This document shows, in pieces, positions 21,374 through 52,876 of a DNA stretch of 64,000 bases. The DNA lies in NCBI RefSeq assembly GCF_028736235.1, contig NZ_CP117884.1, positions 2,294,001 through 2,358,000 on the forward strand. Reading direction: 5' to 3'. Made by a program: the position numbers and the translations under genes. This stretch comes from Lacticaseibacillus pabuli. Its GTDB lineage: Bacteria; Bacillota; Bacilli; Lactobacillales; Lactobacillaceae. The stretch's first letter is position 1. The number at the start of each line of letters is the position of its first letter. The notes under the pieces were generated by a model. It was not told where the DNA came from. It worked only from the letters and a program-made list of their open reading frames with translations, and ran no database searches.

Positions 21374-22087
21374 TTATTTGCCAAAATCCTGTAATAACCG
21401 CTGTACTTCAGCCACTGGCATTTGGCCAGGCGCGGAACTCACACCCGCGCTGGCAAAGGTCAGTGCGGTGCCGAACAACCGACCGGCAACCCGTGTGATC
21501 CTCCCCAGGTTGCCCATCCCCATCAGCGCGACGGGGACATCCAGGTGTTGATGTGCCCATGCGCTAAGCTGCAGGATACGCAGGACATCCCCCGCCGTTT
21601 GCGGCATCAAGGCCAGCTTCAACAATGCCGGTTTTAGCGCCGCCATGTCGCACAGTCGCTGCTGCAACACCGCATCCGCTGGCGTACCCGCAAAGTCGTG
21701 CCAGGACAGCACGACGGGTAGCGGCGGCAATGTCGCCATAACAGCTGCGGCTACAGGGCCAAACTCCACATCAACCATGTCGGGCCGTAGCCGTGCGCAC
21801 CAAGTTTGCACCTGCTGACCGTATTGCTGTGCTGTCGCCAGGCCGCCCTGTTGCTGGGTACGCAAGGTGACCAAGAGTTGCTGACCGTTTGCTTGAATTC
21901 TGGCGGCCAGTTGCTGAGCCGCAGCAAGCTCGGTGGTACCCAAGCGCAACCCATCGACACGCCACTCAATCACGTCTGCTCCAGATGACAGTGCAGGCAC
22001 AATCTGTGCCTGCACCTCGGCAAGGGTTGCCGCCATAATGGGAACCGCCACGAGCGGTGTTTGTCGATTTGCAAATGGGTTGGCCAT
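21374..22087 (-). CDS. aroD: 3-dehydroquinate dehydratase, type I
   Basis: A 237-residue enzyme for the third step of the shikimate pathway, forming 3-dehydroshikimate through a Schiff base. Visible are the substrate motif ADVIEWRVD, catalytic His in SWHDF, the Schiff-base Lys in LLKLALMP and the MGNLGRITR ... SAPGQM C-terminal signature. The start codon follows the aroB stop after one base, with AGGAGG in the end of aroB, so the two are translationally coupled. It is the last gene of the operon. Confidence 0.92.
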   Translation of the reverse strand: MANPFANRQTPLVAVPIMAATLAEVQAQIVPALSSGADVIEWRVDGLRLGTTELAAAQQLAARIQANGQQLLVTLRTQQQGGLATAQQYGQQVQTWCARLRPDMVDVEFGPVAAAVMATLPPLPVVLSWHDFAGTPADAVLQQRLCDMAALKPALLKLALMPQTAGDVLRILQLSAWAHQHLDVPVALMGMGNLGRITRVAGRLFGTALTFASAGVSSAPGQMPVAEVQRLLQDFGK

Positions 22088-22088
22088 G

Positions 22089-23165
22089 TTACGCCTCCTG
22101 TAAGTTCAAGAAATCTGCGACTTCATCGCGCTTGAGCGGTACAATTTCGGGGCTGCCAATGTGCTTCAGAACCACTAAGTTCAGCTGATTACTCCGCATC
22201 TTCTTATCCATCAAAATTTGCGGCAGTAAGTCTGCGTCATGCAATAGTGGTGAATCGATGGGTAGCCCGACAGCCTGCAAGCGTTCTGCAATCTGATCTG
22301 CAGTGCCTGGTTCGGTCAAGCCGCGTGCTTCGGTGATGCGTGTCAGCTGCACCATCCCCACACTAACCGCCTCGCCATGTGCCAGAGCCCCGTGTGCCAG
22401 TAATTCAATGGCATGGCCCAGTGTATGGCCAAAGTTCAGCAATTGCCGCAAGCCTAAATCGTGCTCGTCGGCCGCAACTACGCTGGCCTTGTAGTGGATG
22501 GCAAAATCAATCAGTTCGGGAGACACGCGGCGAATATCGTCGGCACGATTTACACCACTGAGCATCCGCCAGCACAGCGCCGGGTCCGTTAAGGTTGCCA
22601 TCTTTAGCACCTCCGCGTAGCCCTCAGTCAGGTAGCGGTCACTGAGGGTCGCGAGGTAATCGGGATCGATCAGGACCAAATCGGGCTGGTAAAAGCTACC
22701 GACTGTATTCTTGGCGCTGCCCAAATTAATGGCGGTTTTGCCACCAACGGAGCTATCGACCTGCGCCGTCAAAGATGTGGGCACTTGGATGAACGCCACA
22801 CCACGCATGTAAGTCGCCGCAGCGAAACCTGCAAGGTCGCCGCAAACACCACCGCCCAGCGCCACGACACCGGCACTGCGGGTCATGTGTGCATTGGCCA
22901 TGACGTCGTAGACCCGTTCCAGTTCGGCAAGGCTCTTGCTACCCTCACCGAACGGCACGATCATCTCCGTAACGTCGAAACCAGCTGCCGTCAAACTGGC
23001 ACTGGCCTGCTGCAGATGCAGTGGCGCGATGTGTGTGTCCGTCAGCAGGAGCACCCGCCGCGGCGACCACACCTTTGCAATTGCGCCGCCCAGACGTGCG
23101 CGCAGTCCGCGTTCAATCAGAATCTCGTAACTGCGGGCGCCCAGGTCGAGCTTAATCCGCCGCAA
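22089..23165 (-). CDS. aroB: 3-dehydroquinate synthase
   Basis: A 358-residue NAD- and metal-dependent enzyme converting DAHP to 3-dehydroquinate. Recognisable segments are GGGVCGDLAGFAAATYMRG, VPTSLTAQVDSSVGGK and the metal-binding RQLLNFGHTLGHAIE. By homology the protein starts (L/M)RRIKLDLGARSYEI, which requires a TTG start at 23165. This start overlaps the aroF stop by 14 nt, has no strong ribosome binding site and probably depends on translating ribosomes from aroF. Confidence 0.92.
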   Translation of the reverse strand: MRRIKLDLGARSYEILIERGLRARLGGAIAKVWSPRRVLLLTDTHIAPLHLQQASASLTAAGFDVTEMIVPFGEGSKSLAELERVYDVMANAHMTRSAGVVALGGGVCGDLAGFAAATYMRGVAFIQVPTSLTAQVDSSVGGKTAINLGSAKNTVGSFYQPDLVLIDPDYLATLSDRYLTEGYAEVLKMATLTDPALCWRMLSGVNRADDIRRVSPELIDFAIHYKASVVAADEHDLGLRQLLNFGHTLGHAIELLAHGALAHGEAVSVGMVQLTRITEARGLTEPGTADQIAERLQAVGLPIDSPLLHDADLLPQILMDKKMRSNQLNLVVLKHIGSPEIVPLKRDEVADFLNLQEA

Positions 23166-24171
23166 CGGTCTGCTCGTTCAGTTCGGTGACGAGTTTGCGC
23201 AGCGCGAAGACCTTGCGTGTCATGTCCTTGTATTCCTCAGGCTTAAGCGCTTGGGGACCATCGGAGAAAGCGTGTGCTAGGTCATCATGGATTTCCACGA
23301 TTTCACCCTGGGCACCGGCCGGAACGGCGGCCATCGCCATTGGGGTCACGTAACGGGTGACACCAAGTGCGTGGCTAGGGTCCGCAATGACTGGGAAGTG
23401 GGTCAGTTCACGCAACACCGGAATGGCACCTAAATCAAAGGTGTTCCGGGTGTACTTGTTGTCGAAGGTCCGGATTCCGCGTTCAATCAAGAACACGTTG
23501 CGGTTCCCTTGCGCGGCAATGTATTCTGCAGCGTTAAGCAAATCGTCGATGGTGGCGGACATACCACGCTTGAGACCAACGGGGATATTCGTTTTGCCGA
23601 CTTCCTTCAACAAGGAGAAGTTCTGCATGTTACGCGCACCAATTTGGAAAATGTCAGTGTACTTGCCGACCAGATCCACGTGGGCGACATCCATGACTTC
23701 GGTAATCATGTCCATACCGTTCGCATCAGCGGCTGCACGCAGGAACTTCAGACCATCCTCACCAAGACCCTGGAAGGTGTATGGGGACGTGCGAGGCTTG
23801 AACGCACCACCGCGGACGATGGTCGCACCGCCTTCTTTGGCAACAGTTGCCATGCGCATGACGTGTTCCTCGGATTCAACAGAGCAAGGCCCTGCCATCA
23901 TTGTGAAGTGGTCCCCACCGATAACAGAATGTGGCAGTGTGATGATGGTGTCTTCTGGCTGGAACATACGGCTGGTGGTGGCGTAGCTAGGTTCGTTCGT
24001 GGTGATGCTTTCGATGGCGCCCTTTTCTTCGTCGGTCAAATCAACGTCTTTGACACCAATTGCGGCCATATGGGGGCCGACCACGACGACGTGACTTGGA
24101 ATGGCTTCGAGCTTTGCCTGAACCTGCTTCAAAATTGCGGTGTTAACTGGGGTCTTGAATTGAATAATCAT
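23152..24171 (-). CDS. aroF: DAHP synthase, type I-beta with N-terminal regulatory domain
   Basis: A 339-residue 3-deoxy-D-arabino-heptulosonate 7-phosphate synthase, joining erythrose 4-phosphate and phosphoenolpyruvate. Residues 1-70 form the ferredoxin-like regulatory domain through which Tyr or Phe inhibits related enzymes. The barrel begins near 85 (FTMMAGPCSVES, then RGGAFKPRTSPY, VIADPSHALG). The start has GAGGAG about 10 nt upstream. It lies 49 nt behind tkt, which makes its substrate. Likely control is at two levels, by feedback and by the leader upstream of tkt; the first is inferred from the family. Confidence 0.94.
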   Translation of the reverse strand: MIIQFKTPVNTAILKQVQAKLEAIPSHVVVVGPHMAAIGVKDVDLTDEEKGAIESITTNEPSYATTSRMFQPEDTIITLPHSVIGGDHFTMMAGPCSVESEEHVMRMATVAKEGGATIVRGGAFKPRTSPYTFQGLGEDGLKFLRAAADANGMDMITEVMDVAHVDLVGKYTDIFQIGARNMQNFSLLKEVGKTNIPVGLKRGMSATIDDLLNAAEYIAAQGNRNVFLIERGIRTFDNKYTRNTFDLGAIPVLRELTHFPVIADPSHALGVTRYVTPMAMAAVPAGAQGEIVEIHDDLAHAFSDGPQALKPEEYKDMTRKVFALRKLVTELNEQTVAAD

Positions 24172-24220: not shown

Positions 24221-26254
24221 TTAACCAATTTGGCGTAATTCCTGGAATGCGGGCTGGTCGTTTTCAACGGCCATGCTCAGGAAGGCATCCGCCGCGTGAA
24301 TTGGGGTGAAGCCAAAGTGCCGCAGCAGTGCGCTGCATTCGCCGCTAGCACCGAACGTGTCGATACCGAGTGTGACGCCCTCGAATCCGACGAAGCGTTC
24401 CCAACCAAGCGTTGAGCCCAGCTCCAGCGACATACGCCGGCGGATGTTACGCGGCAGGACCAGTTCCTTGTAGGCCTTAGACTGCTTGGCGAAAATCTCG
24501 AAGGACGAGATGCCCACAACGGAAACAAAGACATCTTGAATCGCGAGCACGCGCTGGGTCTTAAGTGCCAACTCAATTTCACTCCCCGTCGCTACGAGGA
24601 TGCCATCTTGCCGGCGACCAGCTGGCACTGGGGCGATGATGGCGGCACCGCGATCCAGGCTCGTGTCGCACTGTGGCTGCGGCAAGGCCATCATCTTCTG
24701 GCGGGTCAATACCAGGACGGTTGGGCCGTCGGTGTTGTCCAAGGCCTGCTGCCAGGCGCGAACGGTGTCCTGCGCGTCGCCGGGACGAATCACGGTGACA
24801 TTTGGAATATTGCGCAGTGTCATCAACTGTTCAATCGGCTGGTGCGTTGGACCGTCCTCGCCGACCGCGATGGAGTCATGCGTGAAGACGTAGATGACCG
24901 GCAGCTTCTGCAGTGCCGCCAAGCGAATCGCACCCTTCATGTAGTCGGAGAAGACCAGGAATGTGGATCCGAAGATGCGGGTACCCCCGTGGAGGGCAAT
25001 GCCGTTCATCGCGGCAGCTTCAGCAAACTCGCGGATCCCAAAGGCGACGTTGCGGCCGCCGCGGGTCCCGCGTTCGAAGAGCGCGGTATCCGGCAGGTTC
25101 GTCTTGTTGGAGCTGGCGAGGTCGGCACTGCCACCCCATAGTTCTGGAACGGTGGGACCAAGTGCATTGATTACTTGTTGGCTCGCATCCCGGCCGGCCA
25201 TTTCCTGTCCCGCCAAGTTTGGCAGTGCCTCGTGCCAGTTTGCTGGTAAGGTGCCGGCAATTGCACTCAGGAGCTGTTCAGCCAGGTCATCATCCTGCGC
25301 CTGCAGGCTGGCGAGTTGACCCAGCCAATCATGGTGGGCGCGACGACCGCGACGGCCGAACGTGGCGTTCATCCGCTGCGTCACGGCAACAGGTGTCGTG
25401 AAGGCTGGGTTATCCCAGCCGAGGTTCTCACGCAAGGCCGCCACTTCCGACTTGCTCAGCACGCTGCCGTGAACTTTATTCGTCCCAGCATTTGGTGTGC
25501 CAAACCCGATGATTGTCCGCACTTCGATGAGTGATGGCTGATCAGTGTTTGCCTTGGCCGCGGTAATCGCGGCGTCAATAGCATCGAGGTCGGTGCCATC
25601 TTCAACCCGCTGGTAATCCCAACCGTAGCTCGCAAAACGCTCACCGTTGTTGCCGCTCTCGCTGCGCCCCATAGGCCCATCGAGCGAGACGTCGTTGGAG
25701 TCAAGCAGGACAATCAGCTTGCCCAATCCGAGGTGACCGGCTAGGCTACCCGCTTCGTGGCTAATGCCTTCCATGAGGTCCCCGTCGCTAGCAAGAACGA
25801 AGGTGAAGTGGTCCACCACGTCCGCGTTTGGCCGGTTGTACTGGTCAGCCAAGTGCTGTTCGGCCATTGCCATCCCGACTGCCATGCCCAGGCCCTGGCC
25901 CAAGGGACCGGTCGTGGCTTCGACACCGGGTACCAAGCCAAATTCGGGATGACCTGGCGTGCGGCTACCGATTTGACGGAAACCCTTCAGGTCGTCGGTC
26001 GTGATGTCAAAGCCGGCGATGTGTTCCAGCGCGTAGAGCATCGCGGAACCGTGACCTGCGCTCAGGATGAAGCGGTCGCGGTTGAACCACTTCACATCCT
26101 GGGGGGTAACCCGCATGTGATTGCGGAACAAGACGTAGGCCATAGGTGCGGCGCCAAGTGGCAAGCCAGGGTGCCCGGAATTTGCGTTTTCGATCTCGTC
26201 GATGGCGAGCATCCGGATGGTATTAACAGCTAACTGATCAGTTTCATCAAACAT
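24221..26254 (-). CDS. tkt: Transketolase
   Basis: A 677-residue thiamine-diphosphate enzyme of the pentose phosphate pathway. Present are [12 protein letters not shown], the GDG..N cofactor motif ([14 protein letters not shown] ... [11 protein letters not shown]) and the pyrimidine-domain segment [19 protein letters not shown]. It is first in an operon with aroF, aroB and aroD, and it supplies erythrose 4-phosphate for the next enzyme. This placement suggests a dedicated copy under aromatic control. The start has GGAGGA 6 nt upstream, after a 255-nt untranslated leader with attenuator-like structures. Confidence 0.94.
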
Positions 26255-26320: not shown

Positions 26321-26352
26321 AAAAGGGCCCAGACATCAGCTGTCTGGGCCCC
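26321..26352 (-). terminator. Second terminator-like hairpin in the tkt leader
   Basis: On the minus strand GGGCCCAGACA / TGTCTGGGCCC with a 5-nt loop is followed by TTTTGTTTG, between the first attenuator terminator and tkt. The T-run is interrupted, so its strength is uncertain. It could be a second checkpoint or an mRNA-stabilising stem. Confidence 0.6.
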
Positions 26353-26384
26353 GAATACGGAAAGAGATTCTTCTCCGTTTTGGT

Positions 26385-26433
26385 AAAAAAAGGCCGCACA
26401 GCTGAAAATTAAGAATTTTCTCACTATGCGGCT
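26385..26433 (-). terminator. Attenuator terminator of the tkt-aro operon
   Basis: On the minus strand GCCGCATA / TGTGCGGC plus an inner GAAAATT / AATTTTC stem is followed by seven T. Its 5' arm (26424-26437) is also complementary to the 3' arm of the preceding hairpin (26456-26472), so the two pairings exclude each other. Confidence 0.85.
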
Positions 26434-26509
26434 ACCAGTTATAAAGATGACAAATTGGTTTAGCTCGCATAGATACGTCCCACCAGGGCGCATCTACGCG
26501 ACCTAGCGG

Positions 26510-26560
26510 CTAGCTAAACCAGTAATAACGATTTGATTGTAAAATTCGTTTGTTTGTCAT
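26510..26560 (-). CDS. Leader peptide MTNKRILQSNRYYWFS of the tkt-aro operon
   Basis: A 16-codon frame with AAGGAG 8 nt before its ATG, starting about 23 nt after the inferred transcription start. Its last residues are Arg-Tyr-Tyr-Trp-Phe-Ser: four consecutive aromatic codons covering all three end products of the pathway encoded downstream. The stop TAG lies inside the 5' arm of the first hairpin. The chance of all three aromatic residues, adjacent and in front of an aro operon, is low. The likely role is to sense charged tRNA-Tyr, tRNA-Trp and tRNA-Phe through ribosome position. Confidence 0.85.
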   Translation of the reverse strand: MTNKRILQSNRYYWFS

Positions 26561-26589
26561 GATTAGAACTCCTTTAATTTGATGAGATA

Positions 26590-26618
26590 AAATTAACATG
26601 GATTACAAAGCCTGTCAA
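26590..26618 (-). promoter_or_regulatory. Promoter of the tkt-aro operon
   Basis: On the minus strand a perfect TTGACA (26618-26613) is followed after 17 bp by TAATTT (26595-26590). Transcription would start near 26583, about 23 nt before the leader peptide ATG. Confidence 0.75.
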
Positions 26619-26784: not shown

Positions 26785-28650
26785 TCATAATCTTGGTAAA
26801 AACGGCTTGCTAAAGTAATAGCCCTGGAAGTGCTGAATTCCTAGCTTATCATGGGCCCAGTCGACTTCTTCCTTGTTCTCAACACCCTCGAGGACAAAGT
26901 CGAGCTGGTGCTCGCTGGCCACCTGAACCCAAAACTTAATGCGCTCATGCAGTGATTCCATGGTCGTAGTCTGGCGCAGGTTTTGCATCGCAAACTTCAC
27001 ACCATCCGCATAGGGAAGAAGCTTGTTTACGACTTCGAAGGAATTGTCACTGCCGACGTCATCGATTTCCACTAGTACTTGGCCCGCTCGGTAGATCGCC
27101 GCGATATCGCGCATGACCTTCAGTGATGGGACATCAGTAATTTCGATGCTTAACTCATCCGGTCCCTCTTTGCTCTGGGCAAATTCAACCAGCGCATTGG
27201 CCACGTTGCGATCACTAAACTGTGCGGTGGTCAGGTTAATGGCAATACGCCGCGTGCTGGATTGTGCTAATGTCCGGCGCATGAGGTCAATTTGCGTTTG
27301 CACGGAAATATCAAACATTTCAGGCAAGACCCAACGCTCGTGTTCCTGATCAAACATCCGCAGCAGCAGTTCATTCCGGTAGCGGCCCTTACCATCAGCT
27401 GGTTTAATTGGTTGCGTAAAGTACGCGTAGGTTGCAATCAAATCGCGTTCGCCATTACCATGCACGGTTTCACCCTCTACCGTAATCGTGTCGCGTCCAG
27501 CATGCTTACTCAGGTACAGGTTATCATCGGCACGCTTTGCCAGGTCGTCAATGCTGTAGTCATTTGGCCGCAATGCCGTGATGCCCATCGAAATGGTAAC
27601 CGAAATATCGTAATCACCGTAATGGTAGTGCGCCTTTTGCACCTGTTGCCAAATACTCTGCATTTCGTCTAGTACCGAATCGGGGTCGCAATCTGCAAAG
27701 GCAATCGCAAATTCCTCACCGCCCGTCCGGTAAAGCTTGTGTTTCCCAGGCAACTGACTGAGCTCGTCATCCAGTGTCGTCGCAACGCCAATCAGCACCG
27801 AGTTACCGGCGAGATGGCCATAATGATCATTGATTTGCTTAAAGTGATCAATATCGATGGAAACCATCGTGAGTTTGCGATTGTCCGCCCGTGCCTCGTC
27901 AAACATGTTGGCCATGTCCGCCTGGTACTGGTTGTAGTTTGCCGCATTGGTCAGCTGGTCAAAGCTGGCGAGCCGCTCGACTTCAGTTGCGTGGACAGCA
28001 CGCCGGTGTTCACGGATCCAGAGGAAGGTTGCAATCCCTGTGACCGCCATGTACATCACGACCGCCTGGAAAATGATGACGCCACGCTGACTCGGCGCAG
28101 AGAACGGCGGAATCAGCAGCCAGAAAGTGAGGGCGACATATAGGAAGGTTACGGTGCTGGCCCAGAGATTCTGCCGAATCCGTTGCGGGTTAATCCGCAT
28201 GTAAACAATGCCAATGAGTAGCAGGCCAACAGAAATGGCGAACTGCGGGCGGTTGAGCCCTAGCATGTGGTGCATGTACCAAACGGCGGCAATCCCGGCA
28301 ATGCGAACCGCCAGCTCCCAATTGTTAATGCCAACGTCAATCAAGGGGAAAACTAGTAGGAATAAGCCTAAGTTATGACAGGCCATGCCAGTATCGGGAT
28401 AGCTATACCCGATAAAGTGCAGCAGCATGCCCAAGCCAATGGTTAGCACCGGCATGAGCACCCGGGCAACAATCCGCCGCACGCGGTCGTTCTTCTCATC
28501 AAACGCGTATTCGTACAATTCTTGATAATGACGAATCACACCAGAAACGAAAAAGACGGCAACGAGGACCTCCACGAACCAAATCACAAAGTTCAACGGG
28601 TGCAGCCAAAGATGCATGATGATAGGCATACCAAATAAATTAATCTTCAA
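26785..28650 (-). CDS. Membrane GGDEF-EAL protein (cyclic-di-GMP turnover)
   Basis: A 621-residue protein with about seven N-terminal membrane segments (1-215), a GGDEF domain (about 230-385) with GGEEF in YRTGGEEFAIAF, then an EAL-type domain (about 400-620). The EAL domain is divergent, but the usual metal and substrate positions appear filled: ELLLR for EALLR, Asn in INLTTAQF, Glu in SIEIT, the Asp pair in EIDDVGS, Lys in DGVKFAM, Glu in LEGVEN and Gln in FQGYYFSKP. It may therefore make and break c-di-GMP. The start is inferred as TTG at 28650 with GAGGGGAAG upstream; the ATG 21 nt inside has no ribosome binding site. It is divergent from deoC. Confidence 0.85.
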   Translation of the reverse strand: MKINLFGMPIIMHLWLHPLNFVIWFVEVLVAVFFVSGVIRHYQELYEYAFDEKNDRVRRIVARVLMPVLTIGLGMLLHFIGYSYPDTGMACHNLGLFLLVFPLIDVGINNWELAVRIAGIAAVWYMHHMLGLNRPQFAISVGLLLIGIVYMRINPQRIRQNLWASTVTFLYVALTFWLLIPPFSAPSQRGVIIFQAVVMYMAVTGIATFLWIREHRRAVHATEVERLASFDQLTNAANYNQYQADMANMFDEARADNRKLTMVSIDIDHFKQINDHYGHLAGNSVLIGVATTLDDELSQLPGKHKLYRTGGEEFAIAFADCDPDSVLDEMQSIWQQVQKAHYHYGDYDISVTISMGITALRPNDYSIDDLAKRADDNLYLSKHAGRDTITVEGETVHGNGERDLIATYAYFTQPIKPADGKGRYRNELLLRMFDQEHERWVLPEMFDISVQTQIDLMRRTLAQSSTRRIAINLTTAQFSDRNVANALVEFAQSKEGPDELSIEITDVPSLKVMRDIAAIYRAGQVLVEIDDVGSDNSFEVVNKLLPYADGVKFAMQNLRQTTTMESLHERIKFWVQVASEHQLDFVLEGVENKEEVDWAHDKLGIQHFQGYYFSKPFLPRL

Positions 28651-52565: not shown

Positions 52566-52876
52566 AACATTTTTAGTGACGATGACGAGATAAGTAGTCT
52601 GTCGCAGTGACAACAGAGAGCCGGGATGGTGCAAGCCGGCGTCACCAGCGCAAACGAAAATGGTCTCCGAGTACGTGCCGCTACGAGCCCTCAGGTGAGT
52701 AGCGACCGGCAAGCACCCGTTAACGTGCACTGGTATCGAATCTACGCGCCACATTTCAAAGCGCTGATGGTTCCGTACCAATCGAGTGCACGTCGGTAAC
52801 GGCGTGCAGAACACGGGTGGTAACACGCAATTGGCGTCCCGCAATCCAAATCATGGATTGCGGGACTTTTTTTGTT
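52566..52876 (+). promoter_or_regulatory. T-box leader with Met (AUG) specifier
   Basis: The leader has the ordered T-box elements: AGTAG, then the stem I distal motif AGAGAGCCGGGATGG, the specifier region GAAA-ATG-GTCTCCGAG with AUG at 52660-52662, and the antiterminator T-box sequence ACGGGTGGTAACACGC (52813-52828). Its TGGT can pair with a tRNA ending ACCA. A terminator follows. Uncharged tRNA-Met should allow read-through into metA-metB-metC-hom. Confidence 0.93.
52836..52873 (+). terminator. T-box terminator
   Basis: A perfect 12-bp stem GTCCCGCAATCC / GGATTGCGGGAC is followed by seven T. Confidence 0.93.

Follow-up and report, generated by a model that had tools for sequence, protein, structure and literature searches.

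The window analysed here is a stretch of 64,000 nucleotides from Lacticaseibacillus pabuli (contig NZ_CP117884.1, positions 2,294,001 to 2,358,000). Its minus strand carries tkt (transketolase, 24221-26254), aroF (DAHP synthase, 23152-24171), aroB (3-dehydroquinate synthase, 22089-23165) and aroD (type I 3-dehydroquinate dehydratase, 21374-22087), with a gene for an AI-2E family transporter further downstream. Pfam matches (DHQ synthase and type I dehydroquinase for aroB and aroD, respectively) bear out all four genes named in the original prediction, which had placed an attenuator in front of this operon. The start of tkt given here is an ATG with the Shine-Dalgarno sequence GGAGG; the list of open reading frames has a longer frame from 26290. 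Directly upstream of the leader lies a GGDEF-EAL gene (26785-28650, minus strand) with its own terminator-like hairpin (26778-26752).

The leader, also on the minus strand, had been predicted to possess a promoter, a ribosome binding site and a short aromatic peptide. The -35 hexamer TTGACA can be read directly (26613-26618), but the -10 element 17 nt downstream is weak (TAATTT, three of six positions) and a consensus scan returned no promoter at threshold. The Shine-Dalgarno sequence AAAGGAG (26569-26575) and the 16-codon open reading frame (26510-26560; ATG at 26560, stop codon TAG at 26512-26510) were both read directly in the predicted place. The frame encodes MTNKRILQSNRYYWFS, and its regulatory codons, TAT TAC TGG TTT, form what we call segment a. 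The predicted fold of the leader has an energy of -78 kcal/mol against a mean of -48.6 kcal/mol for shuffled sequences (z = -6.9), and none of 200 shuffles was equally stable. A scan of the window with Rfam at the gathering score returned no known leader; the sole match is a lysine riboswitch away from the leader (RF00168, 50734-50909, minus strand, 102.7 bits). A T-box at 52573-52844 on the plus strand (81.2 bits) falls under its family cut-off.

Lactic acid bacteria and their relatives are known as T-box users, and this genome holds 23 T-boxes at E ≤ 0.01. None of the 23 is at the window leader, where the covariance model RF00230 is without a match, and a T-box reading was rejected for this leader. 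A scan of 15 related loci at E ≤ 0.5 gave a single T-box match (L129, 3461-3673), which stands away from the leader (1012-1136). We therefore give almost no credence to the idea that the leader is a T-box sensing uncharged tRNA.

A relay of alternative pairings in the leader

From 5' to 3', the minus strand presents the regulatory codons, hairpin A after the stop codon, hairpin B, antiterminator 1, terminator T1, antiterminator 2 and a second terminator, T2. Hairpin A (b:c, 26480-26509) begins directly after the stop codon, and hairpin B (c:d, 26466-26500) is mutually exclusive with both hairpin A and antiterminator 1. A lower stem (26457-26520) joins the Trp-Phe-Ser codons (26520-26512) to the tail of segment d (26465-26457) by canonical pairs. 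Antiterminator 1 (d:e, 26424-26472) comprises 14 canonical base pairs between 26472-26456 and 26437-26424. T1 (e:f, 26385-26432) is a hairpin at 26432-26393, with canonical pairing of 26432-26424 to 26401-26393, followed by CTTTTTTT. In antiterminator 2 (f:g, 26336-26405), nucleotides 26405-26398 (UCAGCUGU) face 26343-26336 (ACAGCUGA), and T2 (g:h, 26324-26352) is again a hairpin, followed by TTTGTTTG. The original prediction had named the codon-containing hairpin, the 14-bp alternative pairing and the first terminator; all three are real, but they are part of a longer relay in which hairpin A (26509-26480) and T2 (26352-26324) had been overlooked, the latter falling beyond the coordinates considered.

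This arrangement is, very probably, that of a ribosome-mediated transcription attenuator in which a relay of RNA segments leads to two successive terminators. In the model we propose, which draws on folding calculations and on analogy for the stalling, the order of folding and the read-through, starvation for Tyr, Trp or Phe would stall the ribosome at the aromatic codons of segment a. The first structure to form would then be hairpin A (b:c), occupying c and leaving d free to pair with e in antiterminator 1, so that T1 (e:f) would be blocked; f would in turn be free for g in antiterminator 2, T2 (g:h) would be blocked as well, and the operon would be transcribed. When charged tRNA is plentiful, the ribosome would proceed to the stop codon and mask the 5' arm of hairpin A, and c:d would form hairpin B; once the ribosome has left, the tail of d would take up the codons, both e:f and g:h would form, and transcription would end. 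The choice of amino acids sensed would thus lie in the leader codons.

Enteric trp and phe attenuators consist of a leader open reading frame with regulatory codons, mutually exclusive 1:2, 2:3 and 3:4 pairings, and a terminator. The window leader has a regulatory-codon frame, exclusive pairings and a terminator in common with them, although at the gathering score it has no match to the Rfam models of the enteric trp and phe leaders. It differs from them in reading three aromatic amino acids in one leader, in the hairpin A that follows the stop codon, and in the second antiterminator-terminator step. The his attenuator of Escherichia coli is a chain of more than four alternating segments in which only the last hairpin is a terminator; the window leader likewise has more than four alternating segments, but here T1 and T2 can both be terminators.

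Occurrence of related leaders

A DNA search of 41 genomes with the window leader matched nothing besides the leader itself, and homologues were therefore sought through aroF and with RNA models. Among the best 80 loci of named genomes found with the AroF query, an aromatic leader is present in 70: 63 were recovered with the first peptide pattern, one (L026) with a widened pattern, and six (L039, L062, L063, L064, L074 and L077) with the RNA model R1. No leader was found in the other ten (L004, a short contig; L046, L067-L069, L073, L075, L076, L078 and L080). At E ≤ 0.05 Rfam gave no match in five of these leaderless loci (L067, L068, L069, L073 and L075); the other five were scanned at the gathering score only, which is a weak test because 20 of the 23 T-boxes of the L. 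pabuli genome score below gathering.

The analysis covered 68 aro leaders at 67 loci, namely 64 of the 80 aroF loci, the window, and two loci of its own genus (L088 and L089) that were added; two false peptide matches (L048 and L071) were dropped. As far as the scan tells, these leaders have tkt, aroF or aroE as their first gene. RFYYYWF, RFSYYWS, RYYYFGWFR and YAWYAYFL are typical peptide ends, and Trp, Tyr and Phe all occur within the last ten codons in 67 of the 68, a count that is high partly because the search pattern demanded Trp. Leaders that keep the hairpins and lack the aromatic codons were not seen, a weak check since most aro leaders were chosen by an aromatic or Trp pattern and the RNA models include the codons; a partial case is provided by three Limosilactobacillus leaders (L062-L064), which have kept Tyr and Phe and lost the Trp codons. 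Outside this family but within the order, leaders of aroE and aroF read YYFSYFR or FYFSYFR and have no Trp. An A/T-rich linker (about TTTTTAGCATGATTAAA) recurs between segments d and e of many aro leaders in alignment A1.

At E ≤ 0.01, 156 of 397 genomes of the family, in 25 of 40 genera, have a match to model R1. For model R2, at E ≤ 0.02, the figures are 204 of 345 genomes of the order, in 55 of 79 genera, and 21 of 250 genomes of the class, where four of the matching genomes do not belong to the order. The E-values of both models are rough and both searches were run with strict filters. Within the window's own genus AroF was found in five of 30 genomes, and the leader model matches at least 22 genomes, this one included, with several of the matches standing before transporters. 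In Agrilactobacillus yilanensis (L003 and L130) aroE has one leader and tkt-aroF another, and T2 was not detected in the former.

Conservation of the alternative pairings

Hairpin B, T1 and T2 were all detected after the stop codon in 65 of the 68 aro leaders, and the three others were dropped before the pairing tests. Hairpin A and the two antiterminators had been suggested by reading the sequences, and the pairings were tested by swapping partners between loci, a procedure that leaves the relatedness among loci in place. Because the consensus of R1 and R2 contains only 21 pairs, the test was made sequence by sequence. For antiterminator 1 (d:e) the native mean was -16.3 kcal/mol against -13.3 kcal/mol for permuted partners; for antiterminator 2 (f:g) the values were -16.7 and -11.9 kcal/mol, and for the pairing of the codons with the tail of d they were -15.0 and -11.3 kcal/mol. 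In none of the three cases did any of 2000 permutations reach the native value, while pairings outside the model (f:h, d:g, a:e and e:g) were without excess over the permutations in the same 65 leaders. Compared with distant single swaps, the native pair was in the best 5% in 14 of the 65 leaders for d:e, 34 for f:g and 30 for codons:tail, and the f:g duplex occurs in 56 distinct forms across leaders.

A second set of 42 further places, drawn mostly from other families and from transporter leaders of the window's genus, gave the same outcome for d:e, f:g and codons:tail (0/2000 each), with d:e clearing the permutations narrowly (-13.1 against a lowest permutation of -13.0), and no excess for f:h, d:g or e:g. 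This set derives from 48 of 66 model matches; those omitted were repeats of identical or near-identical places, L166, L168, L181-L184 and L194, and, on the opposite strand, five weak matches. From the 48, L141, L144 and L145 were left out as used before, and three of the remaining 45 were without T1 or T2; in L186 and L193 the stop codon was taken in a wrong frame.

In the alignment by MAFFT the lower stem of the window and part of antiterminator 1 are out of register, and covariation was accordingly assessed only for T1 and the core of antiterminator 1. In T1, 93.3% of the cells are paired and seven of nine pairs have two-sided changes. The core of antiterminator 1 is paired in 78.4% of cells with two-sided changes in four of seven pairs, a count that is not above shuffles (197/500), whereas its covariation score is (0/500). 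From genus to genus the reading frame, the aromatic codons and the pairings are kept, with compensatory changes.

A reading that overlaps with this one, and differs solely in the last step, is a leader-peptide attenuator in which only T1 matters; T2 would then terminate independently, and f:g would arise as a by-product of hairpins that resemble each other. The classic layout is already present in T1 by itself, with a long U-run in the window, and the Trp-type elements inspected seem, by eye, to have one terminator. The permutation results for f:g in both sets, set against those for f:h, e:g and d:g, speak against such a by-product. Moreover, in 19 of the 65 leaders no stretch of eight bases at the end of T1 contains five T or more; these 19 keep f:g (0/2000), and 17 of them have a U-run at T2. 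T1 is therefore unlikely to be an ordinary terminator in these leaders, which fits a relay, and we consider the T1-only mechanism unlikely.

Correspondence between leader codons and downstream genes

The same RNA is found elsewhere before ABC_sub_bind transporter operons, aroE, aroC and pheA, as well as before an aminotransferase gene that is accompanied by a dehydrogenase-like gene (the latter by eye). The codons differ with the target. Leaders of shikimate operons in the Lactobacillaceae carry codons for all three aromatic amino acids, while Trp leaders precede trpB and Trp-type transporters. The pheA leader, known from two genomes of one genus outside the order, reads MSNTYMQTQLNTFFFSDFR or MSNTYMQTQSNTFFFSDFR (with QLNTFFFSDFR), with Phe only in the cluster and a poor Shine-Dalgarno sequence. 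In L129, L131 and L134, leaders such as NRYYYFWFFHKHL stand before the aminotransferase gene; the stretch between the open reading frame and T1 is much shorter there than in the aro leaders, and hairpins A and B look, by eye, reduced or absent.

Genes for paralogous binding proteins are preceded by leaders of the types YYYGYYG, FFAGFFG and similar, in tandem in the nine genomes inspected, and the window's genome has both kinds (YYYGYRG at C1:419146-419295 and FFFDFFG at C1:420556-420710). On a tree of 52 binding proteins the leader type changes seven times, where the least possible is four and the mean after shuffling is 30.4; none of 200 shuffles was as low. One protein with a Tyr leader (L149) was lost from the tree to a name clash, and 16 of 17 Trp-type loci entered it, their rows labelled W for standing behind the trpB motif (RF04312). 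These 16 rows form one group (100/99). Within the window's genus a Phe group of six (100/98) stands apart from a Tyr group of eight, two of them mostly Tyr (100/96); the Tyr and Phe proteins of this genome, with several others, lie outside both groups. A binding protein with a Trp leader shares 60% identity with the structure 3lft, whose title has it 'in complex with L-Trp'. Of the solved chains, 6hni comes closest to the Tyr-leader protein of this genome and to its Phe-leader protein alike, a comparison that does not separate Tyr from Phe.

Taken alone, the folding results are compatible with a protein regulator, TRAP-like or other, that binds the leader, with the open reading frame incidental. 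The link between codons and target genes argues against such a regulator, as does the fact that the codons themselves are the 5' arm of the first stem, and we hold this explanation to be extremely unlikely. The ribosome-sensing attenuator put forward for this locus is the best fit, as frame, codons and pairings recur and the identity of the codons changes with the downstream gene. The attenuator reading, with its predicted aromatic codon code and two-terminator relay, is strongly supported by these sequence comparisons.

Folding with the ribosome at successive codons

The effect of the ribosome was modelled by hiding the RNA as far as 12 nt beyond the beginning of the A-site codon, an assumed footprint, and d:e was evaluated in transcripts ending in the T1 loop. 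The predicted d:e pairing peaks at an aromatic codon in 50 of the 65 leaders, against 19.1 expected, and elsewhere in 15. The mean number of expected d:e pairs is 10.4 at the aromatic codons, 3.7 with no ribosome, 4.8 in the early open reading frame and 7.3 at the stop codon, the mean at the aromatic codons exceeding that at the stop codon in 47 of the 65. In transcripts ending after c, the mean energy of hairpin A is -14.6 kcal/mol when the modelled ribosome occupies the first aromatic codon, -12.5 kcal/mol for Trp and -1.7 kcal/mol for the stop codon; moving the ribosome from the aromatic codons to the stop costs the hairpin at least 2 kcal/mol in all 65 leaders. With the ribosome at Trp, shuffled segments (mean -5.7 kcal/mol) give a weaker hairpin than the native sequence in 65 of 65; the hairpin formed from the sequence after the stop codon alone is modest relative to shuffles (mean z -1.6; 25 of 65 at the 5% level). 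In the window, hairpin A is calculated at -14.1 kcal/mol with either Tyr codon or the Trp codon in the modelled A-site and at -4.1 kcal/mol at the stop codon.

The modelled balance between antiterminator 1 and hairpin B in the window shifts with the position of the ribosome, with calculated energies of -38.9 and -49.3 kcal/mol, respectively, when there is no ribosome. At the two Tyr codons they are -34.6 and -38.4, and -34.0 and -35.7 kcal/mol, antiterminator 1 being 3.8 and 1.7 kcal/mol behind, and at Trp the two are level (-33.9 and -33.6 kcal/mol; transcript ending in the T1 loop). At the stop codon the values are -25.4 and -29.1 kcal/mol. At Phe they are -26.0 and -33.6 kcal/mol, and as antiterminator 1 is then 7.6 kcal/mol behind, the sensing of Phe in the window is weakly supported. 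A weak point raised at the outset, that the upper half of the first hairpin could form despite a stalled ribosome, is thus answered in the model by hairpin A, best for Trp, less well for Tyr and poorly for Phe.

For the four leaders examined, equilibrium folding of transcripts reaching T1 or T2 comes out on the side of termination wherever the ribosome is placed. In the window, with the ribosome at Trp and the transcript complete to the end of T1, the read-through fold reaches -38.9 kcal/mol and the terminated one -54.6 kcal/mol; for the end of T2 the figures are -64.5 and -87.7 kcal/mol, and termination is favoured by 15.7 and 23.2 kcal/mol, respectively. Equilibrium folding of these longer transcripts was discarded as evidence for switching, of which it shows none. 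Once T1 or T2 is complete the equilibrium lies with termination; read-through would therefore have to be kinetic, and timing would have to matter.

Relation to published RNAs

Some related loci match the trpB motif (RF04312) under its cut-off; the window leader has no match to it at the gathering score. RF04312 was found in 9 of 200 genomes of the class (E ≤ 0.001) and in 98 of 198 genomes of the order (E ≤ 1e-4), 41 of them over the cut-off; the genome of the window gave no match in either scan. An upstream open reading frame with at least two Trp in its last nine residues is present at 26 of the 35 fetched RF04312 places, where 0.05 would be expected from mononucleotide shuffles. Since RF04312 excludes the codons, this test is independent of the pattern used in the leader search. 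Over the cut-off, 25 of 31 places have the Trp-rich frame, which ends in WQNWRR, WQSWRK and similar, most often 12-25 nt before the motif. In the six others, W..W lies slightly further in (L238, L239 and L247), there is one Trp (L229 and L251) or none (L237). Below the cut-off, L205 is of Trp type, L202 has YYFSYFR, and L201 and L203 are without such a frame. A trpB-like gene follows three of the places (L231, L236 and L240; Pfam PALP was tested for L231).

The available text of the paper on the trpB motif describes a strong riboswitch candidate with more than 900 members, upstream of ABC transporter genes and trpB, and leaves a classic attenuator possible (PMC11109978). Its two hairpins, the second a terminator, with an antiterminator in the right shoulder of P1, resemble the relay of the window; what the present work adds is the Trp-rich frame upstream. 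A second set of candidates is formed by the 5' untranslated regions of gbs1262 and gbs2033 in Streptococcus agalactiae, which head ABC transporter operons, with one relative before aroFBC-tyrA of Enterococcus faecium. According to the available part of that report, RNA-seq gave short and long RNAs indicating premature termination, and riboswitches were proposed (PMC4448216); the words 'leader peptide' are absent from it. From their context, the gbs1262 and gbs2033 leaders would belong to the aromatic leader family. A riboswitch that binds an aromatic metabolite, the kind of explanation put forward for these RNAs and the trpB motif, would agree with conserved hairpins and with a terminator and antiterminator upstream of genes for amino-acid transport and synthesis; Rfam types the trpB motif as cis-regulatory, and 28 columns are at least 90% conserved in 50 aligned leaders. 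No column is invariant in those 50, however, W, Y and F codons switch with the target on one scaffold, and the Trp-rich frame precedes the trpB motif in most fetched places. A riboswitch is for these reasons very improbable.

The third published RNA is sRNA_2410 of Enterococcus (RF02863), whose cut-off is exceeded at the leader by three of 15 related loci (L160, L165 and L172); the window has no match at the gathering score. The accessible text describes it as an sRNA of 195 nt, and as two transcripts (PMC5593968). Two terminators would explain two transcripts, and sRNA_2410 may be a terminated leader. The leader of the window had been called undescribed. This needs qualification, as RNAs of its relatives are in print as riboswitch candidates or an sRNA, but in the portions of the three papers available to us no leader peptide is reported for them (PMC11109978, PMC4448216, PMC5593968). 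Among titles and abstracts of the open-licence literature, no paper was recognised that describes the family as leader-peptide attenuators.

As far as the excerpts of the respective papers go, ribosome-mediated or upstream-frame attenuation outside the Proteobacteria is represented by Rli60 of the Listeria ilv-leu operon (PMC5864092), the His leader of bacilli (PMC2965389) and uORFC-13-1, a proposed upstream frame with Phe codons before Acholeplasma aroF (PMC8632094). These resemble the window leader in its proposed mechanism; Rli60 and the His leader concern other amino acids, the Acholeplasma frame has Phe codons, and a double relay is reported in the available text of none.

Implications

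We think it likely that these leaders make up an order-wide regulon built on one RNA scaffold, in which the leader codons set the specificity, one stall opens two serial terminators in an eight-segment domino, and the trpB motif and sRNA_2410 are pieces of the same system. Under such a code, Trp uptake and trpB would be marked by W, the paralogous transporters by Y or F, pheA by F, and the shikimate genes by Y with F or by all three. Codon differences among paralogous operons amount to swap experiments made by nature, which makes the claim directly testable. If it is true, lactic acid bacteria and their relatives would control much of their supply of aromatic amino acids through stalled ribosomes, the trpB motif, an orphan riboswitch candidate with, by the available account, more than 900 published members, would gain a mechanism, an sRNA of unknown role would become a terminated leader, and the substrates of uncharacterised transporters would be predictable from the codons of their leaders.
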